This document shows, in pieces, positions 10,346 to 43,581 of a stretch of DNA of 52,388 nucleotides. The position numbers and the translations under genes are program-made. The DNA is taken from assembly GCA_000961765.1 (NCBI GenBank), contig LADT01000068.1, forward strand, positions 1-52,388, read 5' to 3'. Origin of the DNA: Clostridiaceae bacterium BRH_c20a (GTDB taxonomy: Bacteria; Bacillota; Peptococcia; Peptococcales; BICA1-8). Position 1 is the stretch's first letter, and every line of letters begins with the position of its first letter. The notes under the pieces were generated by a model, which was not told the origin of the DNA, searched no databases, and was given only the letters and a program-made list of their open reading frames with translations.

Positions 10346-11149
10346 GTGGAGGATAAACTTAATAAACTAAAGAAATGGTTTGCAAATAAAGAAGGTGTTT
10401 TGGTAGCATTTTCTGGTGGTGTTGATAGTGCACTGCTTTTAAAAGTTGCCCAAGACGTACTAGGGAATAAGGTCTTGGCCGTAACAGCTAATTCGCCTTT
10501 AAATACTCCTGAGGAAAAAGAGGGAGCGGTTAGCGTAGCCCGAGAGATAGGTGCAGAGCACTTGGTAGTAGAATTGAATGACTTAGAAAACCCCCAAGTA
10601 AGTTCTAATCCACCAGATCGTTGCTACTATTGTAAAAAGGCTCGCTTTGAGGCTATGCTTAAGCTTGCTGAGGAAAAGGGTTTAGAAGTAGTTGTAGATG
10701 GTTCAAATATTGATGACCTAAATGATTACCGTCCTGGATTAAAGGCGGTTAAGGAGTTGGGAATAGCAAGTCCCTTAGAGGAGGTAGGCTTTAATAAAGA
10801 GGAAATTAGAGGTGTTGCCAAGGAACTCGGACTTTCCGTTTGGGATAAGCCCTCAGAGCCTTGTTTAGCAACTCGTATACCCTTTGACACGGAAATTACT
10901 AAAGAAAAGCTTGTCAGGGTAATTAAGGCTGAACGATACTTGAAATATACCCTAGGGCTAAGTCAAGTAAGAGTCAGAGATCATAATGGTTTGGCTCGGA
11001 TTGAGGTAGAAAAAAAGGACTTAGAGAAAATCCTAACTCGGCGTGATGAGGTAACAAAGCTTTTACTTGAAGAAGGCTTTTATTATGTTACCTTAGATTT
11101 AGAAGGTTATCGTACTGGAAGTATGAACAAGGTTGGAGGGGAAATTTAG
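10346..11149 (+). CDS. larE: Sacrificial sulfur transferase LarE
   Basis: 267 residues. N-terminal PP-loop ATP pyrophosphatase motif AFSGGVDSALL (SGGVDS ~22-27). LarE adenylates the carboxylates of the pyridinium precursor made by LarB and swaps them for thiocarboxylates. Three cysteines are visible: C93 and C96 in RCYYCKK, and C173 in SEPCLATRIP. C173 matches the sulfur-donating cysteine of Lactobacillus LarE. The extra pair matches the LarE type reported to carry a [4Fe-4S] cluster as sulfur carrier, so this protein may not be sacrificial (inference). GTG start 10346 behind AAAGGTGGG. Confidence 0.93.
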   Translation: MEDKLNKLKKWFANKEGVLVAFSGGVDSALLLKVAQDVLGNKVLAVTANSPLNTPEEKEGAVSVAREIGAEHLVVELNDLENPQVSSNPPDRCYYCKKARFEAMLKLAEEKGLEVVVDGSNIDDLNDYRPGLKAVKELGIASPLEEVGFNKEEIRGVAKELGLSVWDKPSEPCLATRIPFDTEITKEKLVRVIKAERYLKYTLGLSQVRVRDHNGLARIEVEKKDLEKILTRRDEVTKLLLEEGFYYVTLDLEGYRTGSMNKVGGEI

Positions 11150-11150
11150 T

Positions 11151-11897
11151 ATGCAGGAAAAAGAATTAAGAAAGCTTTTAGAACAGTTACAAAAGGGAAA
11201 TATAGATATCAATGGAGCTGTAAATGAATTAAAGCTTTTACCCTTTAAAGATTTAGGCTTTGCCAAAGTTGATTTTCATCGAGAGCTGCGGCAGGGGCAT
11301 CCAGAGGTTGTTTTCTGCCAAGGTAAGACTCCGGAACAAGTTAAGGAAATTGTAAAGGTTCTGGCCGATAGAAGTAAAAATATCCTGGCAACCAGAGCAG
11401 ATGAAGCAGCATATGAGGCGGTTCTCGAGGTACTGCCTGAGGCTCAGTATTTCAAAGCAGCGAGGATAGTAAAGGTAAATGAGGAAAAAGTAATAACCGG
11501 TAAAGGGACGATCCTAGTAGTCAGTGCCGGTACAGCAGATATTCCTGTAGCTGAAGAGGCCGTTATAACTGCAGAAGCCTTTGGCAATAAGGTGGAACGC
11601 CTTTATGATGTTGGAGTAGCGGGCTTACATCGGCTTTTGACAAATATTGATAAATTGAATGAGGCTCGGGTTATAATTGTTGTAGCAGGAATGGAAGGCG
11701 CTTTGGCCAGTGTCGTAGGTGGTTTAGTTAATGTGCCTGTAGTTGCCGTCCCTACAAGTGTTGGCTATGGTGCCAGTTTTAATGGACTAAGTGCTTTACT
11801 GACAATGTTAAACAGTTGTGCCGCCGGAGTTGGGGTGGTAAATATTGATAATGGCTTTGGTGCCGCCCGCCTGGCTAGTGTGATTAATTCTTTGTAG
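11151..11897 (+). CDS. larB: Pyridinium-3,5-biscarboxylic acid mononucleotide synthase LarB
   Basis: 248 residues from ATG 11151, one base after the larE stop; GGAGGGG at 11135 lies inside larE. The C-terminal AIR-carboxylase (PurE)-like domain is marked by VVSAGTADIPVAEEA, YDVGVAGLHRLL, VVAGMEGALASVVGG and VPTSVGYGASFNGLSALL. LarB carboxylates and hydrolyses nicotinic acid adenine dinucleotide to give the biscarboxylated mononucleotide, the first step of nickel-pincer nucleotide synthesis. DFHRELRQGHPEVVFCQGK is the family's N-terminal signature. Confidence 0.94.
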   Translation: MQEKELRKLLEQLQKGNIDINGAVNELKLLPFKDLGFAKVDFHRELRQGHPEVVFCQGKTPEQVKEIVKVLADRSKNILATRADEAAYEAVLEVLPEAQYFKAARIVKVNEEKVITGKGTILVVSAGTADIPVAEEAVITAEAFGNKVERLYDVGVAGLHRLLTNIDKLNEARVIIVVAGMEGALASVVGGLVNVPVVAVPTSVGYGASFNGLSALLTMLNSCAAGVGVVNIDNGFGAARLASVINSL

Positions 11898-11899
11898 GG

Positions 11900-11985
11900 A
11901 GACCGAGGTGCGGTAGGGGGCGGTTTCCATGCCGCACCGCAAACAGTAGGGGCAGACCCGTGTGTCTGTCCTGAAGGATACGCAG
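11900..11985. repeat. GC-rich REP-like repeat inside the lar operon, copy 2
   Basis: GTAGGGGGCGGTTTCCATG (11913) resembles the copy at 508. GGTGCGG...CCGCACC and GGGGCAGAC...GTCTGTCC can form two adjacent hairpins. It separates larB from larC by 122 bases without an obvious terminator tail. Confidence 0.6.
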
Positions 11986-12019
11986 AATATCCCAATAGTA
12001 GAGAAAGGATTGAGATAGT

Positions 12020-13198
12020 TTGACCACAGCATATTTTAATTGTTCCTCGGGAATCAGCGGTAACATGATTTTAGGGTCATTTGTGGCTGCTGGATTGGAT
12101 TTAGATGAATTTAAAACTGTCTTAGCAACATTACCCATCTCGGGTTATGAAATTATGGTGCAGGACGTAGTAAAAAAAGGCATAAGTGCAAAGCATTTAG
12201 ATGTTAAACTAACAGAACAGCAGCCCCATAGGCATTTATGGCATGTTGAAAAGATAATTAAAGACGGACAACTCCCCATTGGGGTCAGGGACCTGGCATT
12301 AAAAATATTTAATAAATTAGCAGAGACAGAAGCCAAGGTTCACGGGACCAGTATAGAAAAGGTGCATTTTCATGAGGTAGGGGCGGTCGATGCGGTTGTT
12401 GATATTGTTGGTGCGGCTTGGGGTATTTATAAAATGGGTATTAAGAAAGTATATTCTTCGCCATTAAATGTTGGACAAGGTACAGTGAAATGTGCCCATG
12501 GACTTATGCCGATACCTGCACCGGCAACTGCGGAGCTTTTAAAGGGTGCTGTGACGTACTCTAATGAGGTCAAAGGTGAGTTAGTAACCCCGACAGGTGC
12601 TGCTATCATAATCTGCCTCACATCCCATTTTGGCAGTCAGCCCCTTATGAAAATTCAGCAGACAGCCTATGGTGCCGGTACTTGGGATTTACCCATTCCT
12701 AATGTATTACGCTTGACTTTAGGGGAAGAGGTTCAAAAAGATATTCCATCTGAAAATGAGAAAGCGATGGTAATTGAAACAAACATCGATGACATGAATC
12801 CCGAGTTTTATGAATATTTAATGGAAAAGCTCTTTGACGCCGGGGCAGTAGATGTATATTTCACTCCGGTACACATGAAGAAAAACCGGCTAGGCGCATT
12901 GATCTCCGTCACTAGCAATCTAAAGGACCACAGTCCAATAATTGATATTATTCTAAAAGAGTCAACTACACTAGGCTTGAGGATGTACCCTGTAGATAGG
13001 GTTAAACTTGCCAAAGAGTATCAGGAAGTGATGACACCTTGGGGAAAGGTAAGAATTAAGTTAGGCAAATTTGATAACAAAATTTATAATATTAAACCAG
13101 AATACCAAGATTGCAAGGCACTGGCTCTACAGCATGGGATTCCTCTAAAGGAAGTATGGCAGAAGGCATACAACGCCTTTACAGGTGAGGATAACTAA
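12020..13198 (+). CDS. larC: Nickel insertion protein LarC
   Basis: 392 residues in one frame, covering both LarC1 and LarC2 regions. Start TTG 12020 with AAAGGAT at 12004, giving AYFNCSSGISGNMILG. This corresponds to the usual DCFSGISGDM motif, with N in place of D. HFHEVGAVDAVVDIVG, PLNVGQGTVKCAHG and PTGAAII follow. LarC inserts nickel into the bisthiolated pyridinium nucleotide in a CTP-dependent reaction. In Lactobacillus plantarum the full protein needs a programmed frameshift; here no shift is needed. No larA-type enzyme follows. Confidence 0.93.
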   Translation: MTTAYFNCSSGISGNMILGSFVAAGLDLDEFKTVLATLPISGYEIMVQDVVKKGISAKHLDVKLTEQQPHRHLWHVEKIIKDGQLPIGVRDLALKIFNKLAETEAKVHGTSIEKVHFHEVGAVDAVVDIVGAAWGIYKMGIKKVYSSPLNVGQGTVKCAHGLMPIPAPATAELLKGAVTYSNEVKGELVTPTGAAIIICLTSHFGSQPLMKIQQTAYGAGTWDLPIPNVLRLTLGEEVQKDIPSENEKAMVIETNIDDMNPEFYEYLMEKLFDAGAVDVYFTPVHMKKNRLGALISVTSNLKDHSPIIDIILKESTTLGLRMYPVDRVKLAKEYQEVMTPWGKVRIKLGKFDNKIYNIKPEYQDCKALALQHGIPLKEVWQKAYNAFTGEDN

Positions 13199-15203: not shown

Positions 15204-16517
15204 ATGGTTTACTATAATGAACGTCAGCAAAAAATCGCGAAGAAATTTAGCCCCGATGTCATTAAAAGCAATTGGACCGATTGGAAATGGCAAATTAAGC
15301 ATACTATTAAGGATATTGCTACCCTAGAAACACTTTTAAATATTAGCTTTGATGAGGTGGAAAGAAAAAAGCTAGAAAAGACCCTTGCCAAGTTTCCTCT
15401 ATCAATTACACCATATTACTTATCCTTAATTAATCCTGAAAACTTCAGAAAAGACCCAGTATTTAAGCAGGCTTTCCCCTCCCCGGCTGAATTGCAGGTT
15501 GGTACCTGGGAAATGGAGGACCCTCTATCTGAAGATAAAGATAGTCCAGTTCCTGGAATAACCCATAGATACCCCGATAGAGTCTTGTTTTATATCAGTC
15601 ATGTCTGCTCAATGTATTGTCGCCACTGTACAAGGAAAAGAAAAGTTGGTGATAAAGACTCCATCCCCAACAAAAAAGAGATTATTAGGGGTATTAAATA
15701 TATTCAGAGTCACCCGGAAATACGTGATGTTCTTCTCTCAGGTGGTGATCCTTTGATGCTATCAGATGACTACTTAGACTGGATCTTGACTGAATTGAGG
15801 AAAATTCCCCATGTACAGGTAATAAGGTTTGGTTCAAGGATGCCCGTTGTTTTACCCTACCGAATTACTGATGAATTGGTAGCTATCTTTAAAAAACATC
15901 ATCCTATCTGGCTAAATACTCATTTTAATCATCCCCGGGAAATAACACCCTCTTCCAGAGAGGCATTAAGAAAATTAGCTGATGCAGGGATACCTTTGGG
16001 TAATCAATCGGTTTTATTATCAGGAATTAATGATTGTCCCCAGATAATGAAAAGATTGGTCCATAAGCTTGTAGAAAATAGAGTGCGGCCATACTACTTA
16101 TATCAGTGCGACTTATCAGAGGGGCTTAACCACTTTCGGACGTCCATTGGTAAGGGTATTGAAATAATGGAAAACTTAATAGGTCATACCAGCGGCTTTG
16201 CGGTACCTACATATGTAATAGATGCACCAGGAGGTGGCGGTAAAATACCGGTTATGCCAAACTATCTGGTTTCCTGGTCGTCTAACAAGGTAATACTAAG
16301 AAATTATGAAGGTGTTATTACAACTTACGAGGAGCCGGAGAATTATAAATCTATAAGGTGTAATAATAATTGTGAGCAGTGCGATTTACAGTTGAAGCCA
16401 TACGAAACAGGGGAATGTGAATATATCGGGATTGCTCGTTTGATGGCTGATTCAGAAAAAATAATTTCTCTTACTCCGGAAAATAACGAAAGGCTGGGGA
16501 GACGTCTTGCAGAGTGA
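15204..16517 (+). CDS. ablA: Lysine 2,3-aminomutase
   Basis: 437 residues. Radical SAM enzyme converting L-alpha-lysine to L-beta-lysine with [4Fe-4S], AdoMet and PLP. Cluster motif C135-SMY-C139-RH-C142. SGGDPLM is the AdoMet-side glycine motif. The PLP lysine is K347 in APGGGGKIP. The substrate region [16 protein letters not shown] is conserved. A cysteine-rich tail CNNNCEQCD (~391) is an additional element. ATG 15204 lies behind AAAGGAGTG. The overlapping ablB gene shows that the product feeds osmolyte synthesis rather than lysine fermentation, since no kamDE or other fermentation genes are nearby. Confidence 0.95.
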
Positions 16518-17346
16518 TAAGATTGAAAGTATTGGTTCATCCATAGTTCAGCATGGCAAATATAATAGTAGGATATATTTAATGAAGCTGGCATCTGGGG
16601 ATTCACCGCAGATAATAGATAAATTGGATAGGCTAGCCCAGGAAAATGGTTATACGAAGATATTTGCCAAAGTACCGGCATCTGAAAAAGATATATTTAG
16701 CAAGCGGGGCTATGTAGAGGAAGCGGTTATTCCGCTTTTTTCCCATGGTTTAGAGGATGTTTGTTTCTTGGCTAAATATTTTTCTGAAAAAAGAGCCCTA
16801 GAAACAAATCAAGAGGAGATAACAACTATTTTGGAAGCATGTAAAGAAAGACAAAAAAATGCAAAAAAAATTGAGCTGCCTGAGGAATTGGGTTTTAGAG
16901 TTTGTGCAGATAGGGATGCTGTGGAAATGGCATCACTTTATCAAGAAGTATTTGAGTCTTATCCCTTTCCCATATTTGATCCGGAATATCTTAAAAAAAC
17001 AATGCAAAGCCATGTGATCTATTTTGGAATCTGGCATAATGGGGAGCTAGCGGCATTATCCTCGTCAGAAATGGATATAGAATCACAAAATGCGGAAATG
17101 ACGGATTTTGCTACCCTACCCCAATACCGGGGCAAGAGCCTAGCTTCTTATTTGCTGAAGCATATGGAAGCGGAAATGAAGGAGCGGAAAATTAAAACAG
17201 CCTATACAATAGCCAGAGCATATTCCTGGGGAATGAATTTAACCTTTGCGGGATTGAACTATAAGTATGGAGGTACCCTAATAAATAATACAAATATCTG
17301 TGGAAGGCTAGAAAGTATGAATGTATGGTACAAGACCCTACTCTAA
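16507..17346 (+). CDS. ablB: Beta-lysine N6-acetyltransferase
   Basis: 279 residues; TTG start 16507 inside the end of ablA (11-base overlap), so translation is probably coupled. A C-terminal GNAT fold (~125-279) shows the acetyl-CoA loop [18 protein letters not shown] and [21 protein letters not shown], as in AblB/YodP proteins. It acetylates beta-lysine to N-epsilon-acetyl-beta-lysine, a compatible solute known from methanogens and some Firmicutes. Its presence suggests exposure to salt or osmotic stress. Confidence 0.93.
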
Positions 17347-35704: not shown

Positions 35705-35732
35705 TAGACCCTTAATGGGTCTAGTTTTTTTT
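35705..35732 (+). terminator. Terminator between scfA and scfB
   Basis: TAGACCC (35705-35711) pairs with GGGTCTA (35717-35723), followed by eight T's. It would let most transcripts stop after scfA and so make much more peptide than maturase. Confidence 0.85.
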
Positions 35733-35753
35733 GAATTGATAAGGGTGGTAATA

Positions 35754-37142
35754 ATGAAGGAATTGAATTTCAATAATATTCATAAATTTTGCTTTGAAGA
35801 GTTGAAAGTACTGTTGGATATAAATAGTGGATCTGTACATATCATTGATGATACTACCTGGGATTTCCTTGACCAGCTAAAAATAGAACAAGGGGATTGG
35901 GAAAAGGCCCAGGCTGCTCTTATAGATAGGTACGGTGATTCCATCTTACAAGGTGTTGCTAAGGAGCTTAATCAGCTTATTGAAAGTAATCTCCTATTTT
36001 CTCCGGATATTGATCTTCTAGAATACCAGCCCAGCCCTCATCCGGTTGTTAAGGCTCTATGTTTACATGTTGCCCATGACTGCAACCTCCGTTGTGGCTA
36101 TTGCTTTGCTGGAACAGGTGCTTTTGGTGGTCAGCGGCTCCTAATGGACCGGGAAGTTGGTGAAAAAGCCATTGATTTCCTTTTGGCTAACTCCCAAAAC
36201 CGTAAGCATGTAGAAATAGACTTTTTTGGAGGAGAGCCGCTTTTAAATTTTAATGTTGTCAAGGAACTAGTGGCTTATGGTAACGAGCGGGCTGAAAAGC
36301 TAGGCAAAATAATAAAATTCACCATAACTACTAATGGTGTTCTTTTATCTGATGAGGTGCAGGACTTTTTAAATAATAACAATATGAGTGTTGTTTTAAG
36401 CTTAGATGGACGAGAAGAGATTAATGATAAAATGAGGCCTTTTCCTAATGGCTCAGGTTCATATTCAATCATTAAAGATAAAATACTTGATTTTGTAAAA
36501 GGACGCAAGCAGAAGGACTACTACGTCCGGGGTACCTACACCCACCATAATTTGGATTTTGCAGCTGATGTGAAACATTTAGCCGGGCAGGGCTTTAGAG
36601 AAATTTCCATTGAACCTGTTGTTGCTGATCCTACCTGTGATTATGCTTTTAAGAAAGAAGATTTACCTTTTTTAGAGGAGCAGTATGAAGTTTTGACTAG
36701 ATATTACTGGCAGTCCTATGTAAATGGTAAAGGCTTTAACTTTTTTCACTTCAACATAGATTTAAACCATGGGCCCTGCCTGCCTAAACGCTTATCAGGC
36801 TGTGGTGCAGGCCATGAATATTTGGCTGTTAGCCCAGAAGGGGACTTATATCCCTGCCATCAGTTTGTGGGTCAGGGGAACTTTAAAATTGGCAGTGTCT
36901 ATTCAGGTACTGCCCAAAAGGCTATAGCCTTAGAATTTCAGAAGAGCCATGTTTTAAATAAAGAAGAATGTAGAGGGTGCTGGGCTCGTTACTACTGCAG
37001 CGGTGGTTGTCATGCCAATAATCTTGTCTATGGGGGCTCCTTACTAAAACCTTATATTTTTGTCTGTGAACTGCAGAGAAAAAGATTAGAATGTGCTCTA
37101 TATCTTCAGGTAAAAAAACACTTATTTGCTGCAAATGTTTAG
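35754..37142 (+). CDS. scfB: SCIFF radical SAM maturase
   Basis: 462 residues from ATG 35754 (AAGGGTGG at 35741). An N-terminal RiPP recognition-type region (~1-85) is followed by the radical SAM core with C110-NLR-C114-GY-C117, DFFGGEPLLNFNVV and TITTNGVLL. A SPASM domain at the end carries the auxiliary cluster cysteines CGAGHEYLAVSPEGDLYPC and CRGCWARYYCSGGCHAN. It installs thioether cross-links in ScfA. Always paired with scfA, here 54 bases downstream behind the partial terminator. Confidence 0.95.
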   Translation: MKELNFNNIHKFCFEELKVLLDINSGSVHIIDDTTWDFLDQLKIEQGDWEKAQAALIDRYGDSILQGVAKELNQLIESNLLFSPDIDLLEYQPSPHPVVKALCLHVAHDCNLRCGYCFAGTGAFGGQRLLMDREVGEKAIDFLLANSQNRKHVEIDFFGGEPLLNFNVVKELVAYGNERAEKLGKIIKFTITTNGVLLSDEVQDFLNNNNMSVVLSLDGREEINDKMRPFPNGSGSYSIIKDKILDFVKGRKQKDYYVRGTYTHHNLDFAADVKHLAGQGFREISIEPVVADPTCDYAFKKEDLPFLEEQYEVLTRYYWQSYVNGKGFNFFHFNIDLNHGPCLPKRLSGCGAGHEYLAVSPEGDLYPCHQFVGQGNFKIGSVYSGTAQKAIALEFQKSHVLNKEECRGCWARYYCSGGCHANNLVYGGSLLKPYIFVCELQRKRLECALYLQVKKHLFAANV

Positions 37143-42136: not shown

Positions 42137-42231
42137 TTATATTTACCCTTTATTTCATTTTTTTATAAAGGTAGCTGCTAGTTAAAAGTAGAAAACTAGT
42201 AAAAAGAAAATGAAATTAAGGGGGAGATAAG

Positions 42232-42951
42232 GTGAAAATTGATAAAGATTTATGTATTGGTTGTGGTAATTGTCTAATATATTGCCCTGTAGATGCAATT
42301 TTGGAGGAAGATGGGGTTATTGATATTGATTTTAATGAATGCGTAGAATGTGGTAACTGTCTCCGTATGAGTAATTGCCCAACCGATGCAATTTATAGCC
42401 AGGCAATGGATTACCCAAGAGTTATTCGGGCAGTTATGAGTGATCCCTATGTAGTAGCGCCAAATACAGGCATTCCAGGTCGGGGTACTGCGGAAATAAA
42501 AACAAATGATGTTACGGGTAGATTTAAGAGGGGATGGATAGGTATGGCAGTAGAGCTAGGTCGGCCAATTACAGGTGTCTGGCTTAGTGATGTAGAGAAG
42601 GCTGCAATGGCTATCAGCAAGCATGGGATAGATTTTGAAAAAATAAACCCTGTTACAGCAATGATGCAGGATGCAAAGGTTGGAAAGTTCAAAGATGAAC
42701 TGCTTAAGGAAAAGGTGCTTTCTGCTATTTTAGAATTTGCCGTTGAACCGGAGAAAATTCCGGCTCTGCTCAATACTTTAGAAGAGGTGCAAGAAGAGGT
42801 GAATTGTGTATTTAGTGTTGATATTGCCAGCAGATGTAATCCTGATTTAAGTGTACCCCATGAAGAGATAATTGCAAAAACCGGTCACTGGATTTCCTTA
42901 AATGCAAAAACTAACCTTGGGCTAGGCAAGCCCTTGGTAAAGGAGGATTAA
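42232..42951 (+). CDS. Ferredoxin-domain protein with unknown C-terminal domain
   Basis: 239 residues; GTG 42232 after GGGGGAGATAAG. N-terminal 2[4Fe-4S] domain: CIGCGNCLIYCPVDAI and CVECGNCLRMSNCPTDAI (the second motif has an extra three residues before the last Cys). Residues ~65-239 are a conserved-looking unknown domain: GIPGRGTAEIKTNDVTGRF, WIGMAVELGRPITGVWLSDVEKA, INPVTAMMQDAKVG, and VNCVFSVDIASRCNPDL. I do not recognise it. It is coupled to 42955 (3-base gap), so the two proteins probably act together in an electron-transfer-dependent step. Confidence 0.75.
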   Translation: MKIDKDLCIGCGNCLIYCPVDAILEEDGVIDIDFNECVECGNCLRMSNCPTDAIYSQAMDYPRVIRAVMSDPYVVAPNTGIPGRGTAEIKTNDVTGRFKRGWIGMAVELGRPITGVWLSDVEKAAMAISKHGIDFEKINPVTAMMQDAKVGKFKDELLKEKVLSAILEFAVEPEKIPALLNTLEEVQEEVNCVFSVDIASRCNPDLSVPHEEIIAKTGHWISLNAKTNLGLGKPLVKED

Positions 42952-42954
42952 GAC

Positions 42955-43581
42955 ATGACACATACTTTACATAGGGTAGGTACATTAGAGGAACTCAAGA
43001 AGGATTATATTATTTTTATTATGGCTGAACGAGGTTATAACTTAGAAGGCTCCAAAGAAAAATACCAGGAGTTTGTAATAAAAGCCCACGAATTAGGAGC
43101 TATTAAAATTGGAGATGCTTTGCATGGTAATATTCTCTCACAAAAAGGGTTGGATAATCTTTTGAAGAATATTACAGATCAGGCTGCACCATTACATGCA
43201 ATATTTAATGATGAGGAAAAATTGAAGGAAATGCTCAAATGGCTTAAGGAAAGAGATCTAGGCATCTCAGCTGTGATTTCTGGCTTAGCAGACCATGTTC
43301 ACAGATGCTGTCAGGAAGTAGGTATTAGTCGGCATACTGTTGAACATTCCCTAGGACGCTGGGGAAGAGTAGAGAGACTTCCCACCGAAGAAGTCCTAAA
43401 GGTTAATACTATGTGCGGTCATCAAATGGTGACAGTAGGTATGATTAAAAAAGCTGTTGAAGATATCAAATCGGGCCGCATTACACCGGAAAAGGCTGCT
43501 GATGAATTATATGTAAGCTGTGCTTGTGGTGTATTTAATACTGAAAGGGCGGCAAAAATTCTCAAGAGTATGGCAGAATAA
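42955..43581 (+). CDS. Cys/His-rich protein of unknown function
   Basis: 208 residues; ATG 42955 with AAAGGAGG at 42939 inside the preceding gene. His-rich start MTHTLHRVGTLEELKKDYI, central DHVHRCCQEVGISRHTVEHS, then MCGHQMVTVGMIKKAVEDI and CACGVFN. The set of Cys/His pairs (HRCC, CGH, CAC) suggests a metal or Fe-S site. No signal peptide or membrane helix. Always-alone gene pairs of this kind with a ferredoxin could be a reductase with its electron donor, but this is inference. A weak GC-rich stem follows the stop at 43585-43625. Confidence 0.7.
   Translation: MTHTLHRVGTLEELKKDYIIFIMAERGYNLEGSKEKYQEFVIKAHELGAIKIGDALHGNILSQKGLDNLLKNITDQAAPLHAIFNDEEKLKEMLKWLKERDLGISAVISGLADHVHRCCQEVGISRHTVEHSLGRWGRVERLPTEEVLKVNTMCGHQMVTVGMIKKAVEDIKSGRITPEKAADELYVSCACGVFNTERAAKILKSMAE

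Follow-up and report, generated by a model that had tools for sequence, protein, structure and literature searches.

The L-aspartate semialdehyde sulfurtransferase consists of a cysteine-dependent COG1900/DUF39 subunit (MA1821) and a NIL-ferredoxin (MA1822), the latter being a small ferredoxin with an extra domain, thought to give electrons to its cysteine-functional partner (PMC12068725, PMC5764234). For CO dehydrogenases, excerpts of the survey by Inoue et al. (2019) list FNOR, CooF and "functionally unknown proteins" among the associated genes (PMC6344411), and the excerpted text of CO dehydrogenase genomic surveys mentions unknown neighbors, the pair described below not being named in these excerpts (PMC6344411, PMC11338639).

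Here we describe two adjacent genes, A and B, in a window of Clostridiaceae bacterium BRH_c20a, the window being the whole stretch of 52,388 nt that was analyzed. This is a real, widespread and undescribed pair, and its function is predicted in outline only; no paper describing it has been found in the literature searched, where the coverage of subscription journals is sparse. There is good support for A and B being the subunits of an undescribed and obligate two-subunit Fe-S module, given their co-occurrence, adjacency, mirrored evolutionary distances, operon contexts, fusions with flavoproteins, and the invariant residues of B. The original prediction is upheld in part. Its dedicated two-gene redox module is supported, being undescribed in the libraries and literature searched and showing perfect co-occurrence of A and B over 299 genomes; the roles suggested in it, B as an enzyme and A as its electron donor, are tentative. 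The pair, which has no family entry, recurs in fermenters, syntrophs and gut bacteria, a single genome having as many as about ten copies, and knowledge of its role would allow for the annotation of one element common to many carboxylate operons and show the route of operon electrons to or from the ferredoxin pool.

Gene layout in the window

Both genes, as well as all their features listed below, are on the plus strand. Gene A (42232..42951) has a GTG start and a TAA end and encodes 239 amino acids; gene B (42955..43581) starts with ATG and encodes 208 amino acids. These coordinates and the gap of three bases (gac) coincide exactly with those predicted. Shine–Dalgarno-like stretches read from the sequence precede both genes, GGGGGAGATAAG at 42220..42231 for gene A and AAGGAGG at 42940..42946, within the 3' end of gene A, for gene B; the suggested "own leader" is weak, with promoter-like matches not exceeding those in shuffled sequences and no match in Rfam. 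In agreement with the soluble nature suggested for both proteins, no transmembrane segment is observed, and the highest 19-residue hydropathy is 1.4 for A and 0.8 for B.

The pair is isolated in the window, being flanked by a BON-domain gene and a metallo-beta-lactamase-fold gene. Its nearest relative is 75% identical in A and 65% identical in B, with pN of 0.15 and pS of 0.94 for A, and pN of 0.23 and pS of 0.83 for B. Non-synonymous change is thus far below the synonymous one in both genes, hence A and B are real proteins under strong purifying selection; together with ten paralogous pairs in the host genome, this shows that the open reading frames did not arise by chance. Downstream of the sister of the window pair, in Candidatus Acetocimmeria (L034), an LdhH-like gene comes first and then the beginning of a LutB-like one, and TRAP/HIBDH or TTT operons predominate in the wider clade. 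The pair had no match in the plasmid search. In comparison with PADLOC profiles of known defense systems B had no match, and the sole match of A was BrxP (17.8 bits), over the ferredoxin cysteines.

Three further regions of the window were judged by eye. Three adjacent genes at 10346-13198 resemble larE, larB and larC, presumably for nickel-pincer cofactor synthesis; at 15204-17346, what looks like a lysine 2,3-aminomutase gene precedes an acetyltransferase-like one, an order reminiscent of N-acetyl-beta-lysine synthesis; and the radical SAM protein encoded at 35715-37142, which has Cys clusters at its C-terminus, is presumably a SPASM-like maturase.

Conserved features of the A and B proteins

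Residues 1-60 of A constitute a two-cluster ferredoxin domain, identified as a 2[4Fe-4S] ferredoxin by the Fer4 profile (43.8 bits against the cut-off of 21.1, E=1.8e-11). Both [4Fe-4S] motifs noticed originally, C8-C18 (42253..42285) and C37-C49 (42340..42378), are covered by the Fer4 match, and each contains four invariant cysteines. Ferredoxin structures are the top structural matches of the A model, the ferredoxin domain being the only one identified in it.

The C-terminal region (residues 61-239) is conserved and present in every relative of A that was collected. In agreement with the original description of about 175 unassigned residues, nothing relevant has been found for it in Pfam, NCBIfam and PDB with the single sequence, nor in Pfam and PDB after 38 diverse relatives had been added, and structure comparison of A yielded no diagnostic match outside the ferredoxin domain. 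A single weak match of residues 111-168 to the Thermotoga glycerate kinase (2b8n; E about 0.002-0.007) is taken as chance, and homology of the A C-terminus with B is rejected, the hhalign probability being 4%. The structure models of both proteins were built from ten-row alignments, and due to this the C-terminal region of A is poorly modeled: the overall pLDDT is 72, dropping below 50 for residues 65-98 and 224-239.

Essentially invariant in about 90 sequences of A are the eight cluster cysteines, Gly-Arg-Gly-Thr, Glu88, Lys90, and Gly-Arg-Pro. The GRP motif occupies residues 110-112 (42559..42567), and the near-invariant loop GRGTAEIKTNDV, residues 83-94 (42478..42513), corresponds to GRGTEExKTNDV in the family. 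The window copy retains all of these residues and, among positions with at least 95% conservation, departs solely at position 87, where it has Ala and 98% of sequences have Glu. Judging from this pattern, there are more invariant polar and charged residues at a distance from the cluster cysteines than a plain electron carrier needs, which suggests a binding or active site.

B matches no family: no relevant match has been observed in Pfam, NCBIfam and PDB for the single sequence, or in Pfam and PDB with 39 diverse relatives. Weak matches of the B profile to XPA and DNA polymerase are taken as chance, and weak Pfam matches to Astacin, SHOCT-like and DUF749 occur in just one or two of the 39 members.

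Eight residues are identical in all 91 B sequences (Cys154, Gly155, His156, Cys189, Cys191, Gly192, Asn195, and Arg198), and all eight lie outside both patterns used in the genome search. Candidate metal ligands are Cys154 and His156 of TMCGH (43408..43422), and Cys189, Cys191 and Asn195 of CACGVFN (43519..43539), and so two of the three motifs formerly read as a metal-like site, MCGH and CACGVFN, hold invariant residues. The third, HRCC (43300..43311), varies, with C118 found in 40 and C119 in 54 of the 91 sequences, and is no longer considered a part of the site. The N-terminus MTHxLHRxG (42955..42981), conserved at 98–100% and seen also among the ten B copies of the host genome, and His127 (43333..43335; 90 of 91 sequences) fall within the two search patterns, and hence their conservation is biased by selection of the sequences.

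For B, AlphaFold2 predicts (at pLDDT 84) a ferredoxin-like first half, with strands 18-23, 51-54, 80-84 and 105-109 and helices between them, and a C-terminal part comprised of a run of four helices. Therefore, the early statement that B has no known fold needs qualification, as the first half is a generic ferredoxin-like beta-alpha-beta arrangement; its structural matches are not diagnostic, VIA-align Z being at most 8, the level of common ferredoxin-like arrangements. Comparison with the viral structure library gave nothing under E 0.001. In the model, Cys154 and His156 precede helix 161-172, and Cys189 and Cys191 follow helix 178-188. In an antiparallel hairpin these ends would be adjacent, and it is plausible that all four residues share one site at the same end of the helical hairpin.

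The original prediction named two outcomes that would speak against it, a clear match to a characterized family and loss of the Cys and His residues in homologues. Neither is observed in the sense meant, as no characterized family was matched and Cys and His residues of B outside HRCC are retained.

Distribution, pairing and operon contexts

Scanning of 84,980 species genomes yielded at least 150 loci. The search relied on two short patterns only, so this number is a lower bound; it was obtained via alignment-based search, and a single-sequence search of genome contigs gave no match. Relatives of the pair are found in anaerobes of several phyla, the record titles naming Clostridia, Peptococcaceae, Syntrophaceae and other Deltaproteobacteria, Dehalococcoidia, Synergistales, Halanaerobium, Dialister, Sutterella, Mesosutterella, and Aminicenantes.

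A and B are almost always found as partners. When 299 genomes sampled from the phylum of the host were compared, the profile of B and that of the A C-terminal region matched the same 19 genomes, none of them having one protein alone, which is the co-occurrence proposed as a check on the prediction. Out of 108 B genes in 86 loci, 103 are accompanied by a co-directional A at a distance of no more than 500 bases; among the five B genes without adjacent A, two start within ten bases of a contig end. A is upstream of B in 79 of 80 pairs, with gaps clustering from –4 to +25 bases and frequent overlaps of start and stop codons. Moreover, pairwise distances between A C-terminal regions mirror those between B proteins (r = 0.81 for 60 non-redundant pairs, the maximum in 2000 permutations being 0.17); common ancestry of the loci adds to this correlation, so it demonstrates joint inheritance, and by itself does not demonstrate contact. 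A single open frame with both A and B sequence was observed once (L082, 7158-8630); the stretch at the end of its A part is altered, so that it looks like a frameshift and not a natural fusion.

The host genome (4.5 Mb, 92 contigs) has ten A and ten B genes, always paired, nine pairs being in the A-B order and one in the B-A order (contig C92; L022, 13936-15289). The richest other genome has 9 places of B and 11 of A, two of the latter being fragments. Two host pairs (L017, 5090-6462, and L018, 8657-10026) are near-identical, with 99.6% identity in A, 95% in B and dS of about 0.16-0.19, and constitute a recently copied module reused in another operon, as one lies in a TRAP operon on contig C73 and the other in a TTT operon with PdxA on contig C26. 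Tandem arrays, observed elsewhere, comprise three A-B pairs (L047, 395-5862) or the order A-B-B-A-B (L049, 1736-5131), and their members are possibly different subunits of one assembly.

The genomic neighborhood is dominated by two kinds of genes. Transporter genes of TTT, TRAP or MetQ type are present in 42 out of 66 loci, FNOR, CODH, AOR or CooF-like genes in 33, and at least one of the two kinds in 58, leaving eight loci with neither. Other neighbors encode 3-hydroxyisobutyrate/threonate-dehydrogenase-like proteins, Ldh2, PdxA, DHDPS-family proteins, LarA, GlcD, glyoxylate-carboligase-like enzymes, PanB, methylisocitrate-lyase-like enzymes, and GntR or PrpR regulators. The operons carrying the pair are of lactate (LutB, LdhH-like), 3-hydroxyacid, arginase-family, methylisocitrate-lyase, aconitase, and glycyl-radical types. 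In three loci (L075, L090, L099) A is fused behind a GltD-like flavoprotein, which in L075 is comprised of Pyr_redox_2 and Fer4_20.

On the tree of B, the redox-gene context changes 13 times and the transporter context 18 times, the means for shuffled contexts being 26 and 31, respectively; the contexts of the pair are thus partly inherited and often switched. The host genome encodes 15 TctA genes and 27 places of the AOR N-domain, a few of the latter being fragments; these numbers are strikingly high for carboxylate uptake and for tungsten- or molybdenum-dependent aldehyde oxidation. Four of these TctA genes have a pair within 3 kb, and three of the AOR places have one alongside. The gut bacteria Mesosutterella, Dakarella and Dialister (L076, L081, L058) have in common a compact cluster of MetQ, A, B and a methylisocitrate-lyase-like gene, a small system where the substrate might be found.

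Predicted role and alternative explanations

We assign a probability of approximately one half to the reading in which A and B are obligate subunits of a soluble Fe-S redox complex, added by strict anaerobes to operons through which small carboxylic acids are imported and oxidized. In the likeliest scheme, A passes electrons between the predicted metal site of B and catabolic oxidoreductases. The two [4Fe-4S] clusters of A would exchange electrons with the low-potential partner of the operon, candidates being an NAD(P)H flavoprotein of FNOR or GltD type, an aldehyde:ferredoxin oxidoreductase, Ni-CO dehydrogenase with a CooF-like protein, or the free ferredoxin pool. The C-terminal region of A would pack against B, and electrons would pass to or from the putative site formed by Cys154, His156, Cys189 and Cys191, which could be a three-Cys/one-His Fe-S cluster or similar. 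The invariant Arg, Lys, Glu, His and Asn nearby are probably active-site residues acting on a small anionic substrate. While the pairing, co-inheritance, residue conservation, operon contexts and flavoprotein fusion have been shown, we infer that A and B associate physically, that B binds a metal, which way electrons flow, and that catalysis takes place. A more far-reaching proposal, that the pair represents a new class of ferredoxin-linked enzyme with a new type of metal site in B, carrying out a redox step common to many anaerobic carboxylate-degradation pathways in several phyla, is possible, and we put it forward as tentative.

Several observations count against the carboxylate-oxidation complex. 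No chemical step common to all operon types with the pair is visible, structural matches beyond the ferredoxin domain of A are not diagnostic, and the window pair has no adjacent catabolic partner gene. What speaks most strongly against a substrate-specific enzyme is the presence of near-identical pairs in TRAP and TTT operons, which a generic redox or regulatory part fits better. The same observation favors the main rival, a serious one, albeit rather unlikely in our opinion: a redox- and ligand-sensing regulator of the neighboring carboxylate transporter or oxidoreductase, acting as PII-like proteins do on transporters, with the clusters reporting on the ferredoxin pool and ferredoxin-like domains binding an effector. 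Frequent transporter neighbors agree with it, as does one pair located between TctC and TctB (L101), and structural comparison of the first half of B places several PII-like proteins (SbtB, CPII, TM0021) near the top, with Z of about 7. However, Z under 8 indicates no more than a common ferredoxin-like arrangement, Pfam shows no match of A, B or their relatives to PII, ACT or NIL families, transporters do not adjoin the pair in many CODH-FNOR and AOR loci, and eight loci have neither a transporter nor a counted redox gene.

There are two further explanations. AOR, CODH, LarA, aconitase-family and PFL-like enzymes in the neighborhood would suit a maturation or protection factor, which would keep the operon's AOR, CODH, aconitase-type, glycyl-radical or nickel enzymes, all sensitive to oxygen, assembled or reduced; this is improbable, as many pairs occur only with transporters and ordinary dehydrogenases (e.g., L056, L079, L087), and only three of the 27 AOR places in the host genome adjoin a pair. 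Even less probable is ferredoxin-driven thiol or persulfide chemistry on an aldehyde or oxoacid, with cysteines of B as sulfur carriers, after the L-aspartate semialdehyde sulfurtransferase. Both systems are built on a similar plan, in which a cysteine-dependent protein is paired with a ferredoxin bearing a further domain (PMC12068725, PMC5764234), and HIBDH and AOR families, which form or use aldehydes, are frequent neighbors; against this, A has no NIL match and B matches no Pfam family, the NIL search of the host genome gave one place, which is not a copy of A, and about ten copies in catabolic operons misfit a biosynthetic sulfur step.

Comparison with known systems

The A-B pair shares single features with several known systems. 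Residues 1-60 of A resemble 2[4Fe-4S] clostridial-type ferredoxins both in sequence and in predicted structure, whereas the conserved C-terminal region of about 175 residues is an addition to these ferredoxins. B has frequent transporter neighbors in common with the PII-like SbtB and CPII and may resemble them in the predicted ferredoxin-like fold of its first half, but Z is at most about 7, no Pfam match to PII-like or ACT-like profiles is observed in A, B or relatives, and B differs in its additional helical part with Cys and His and in its obligate pairing with a ferredoxin. In many loci of Syntrophales, Deltaproteobacteria and Clostridia, the pair lies within or adjoins the Ni-CODH/CooF/FNOR cluster, whereas about half of the A-B loci contain no CODH, FNOR, AOR or CooF-like gene.

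The L-aspartate semialdehyde sulfurtransferase remains the nearest precedent in plan, sharing the two-subunit organization in anaerobes. At the family level, no NIL (PF09383) match is seen in A or its 38 relatives, and no Pfam match, COG1900/DUF39 included, in B (E up to 1) or in 39 aligned members (E up to 0.1). The genomic setting differs as well: the A-B pair is present in multiple copies, and in catabolic rather than methionine operons.
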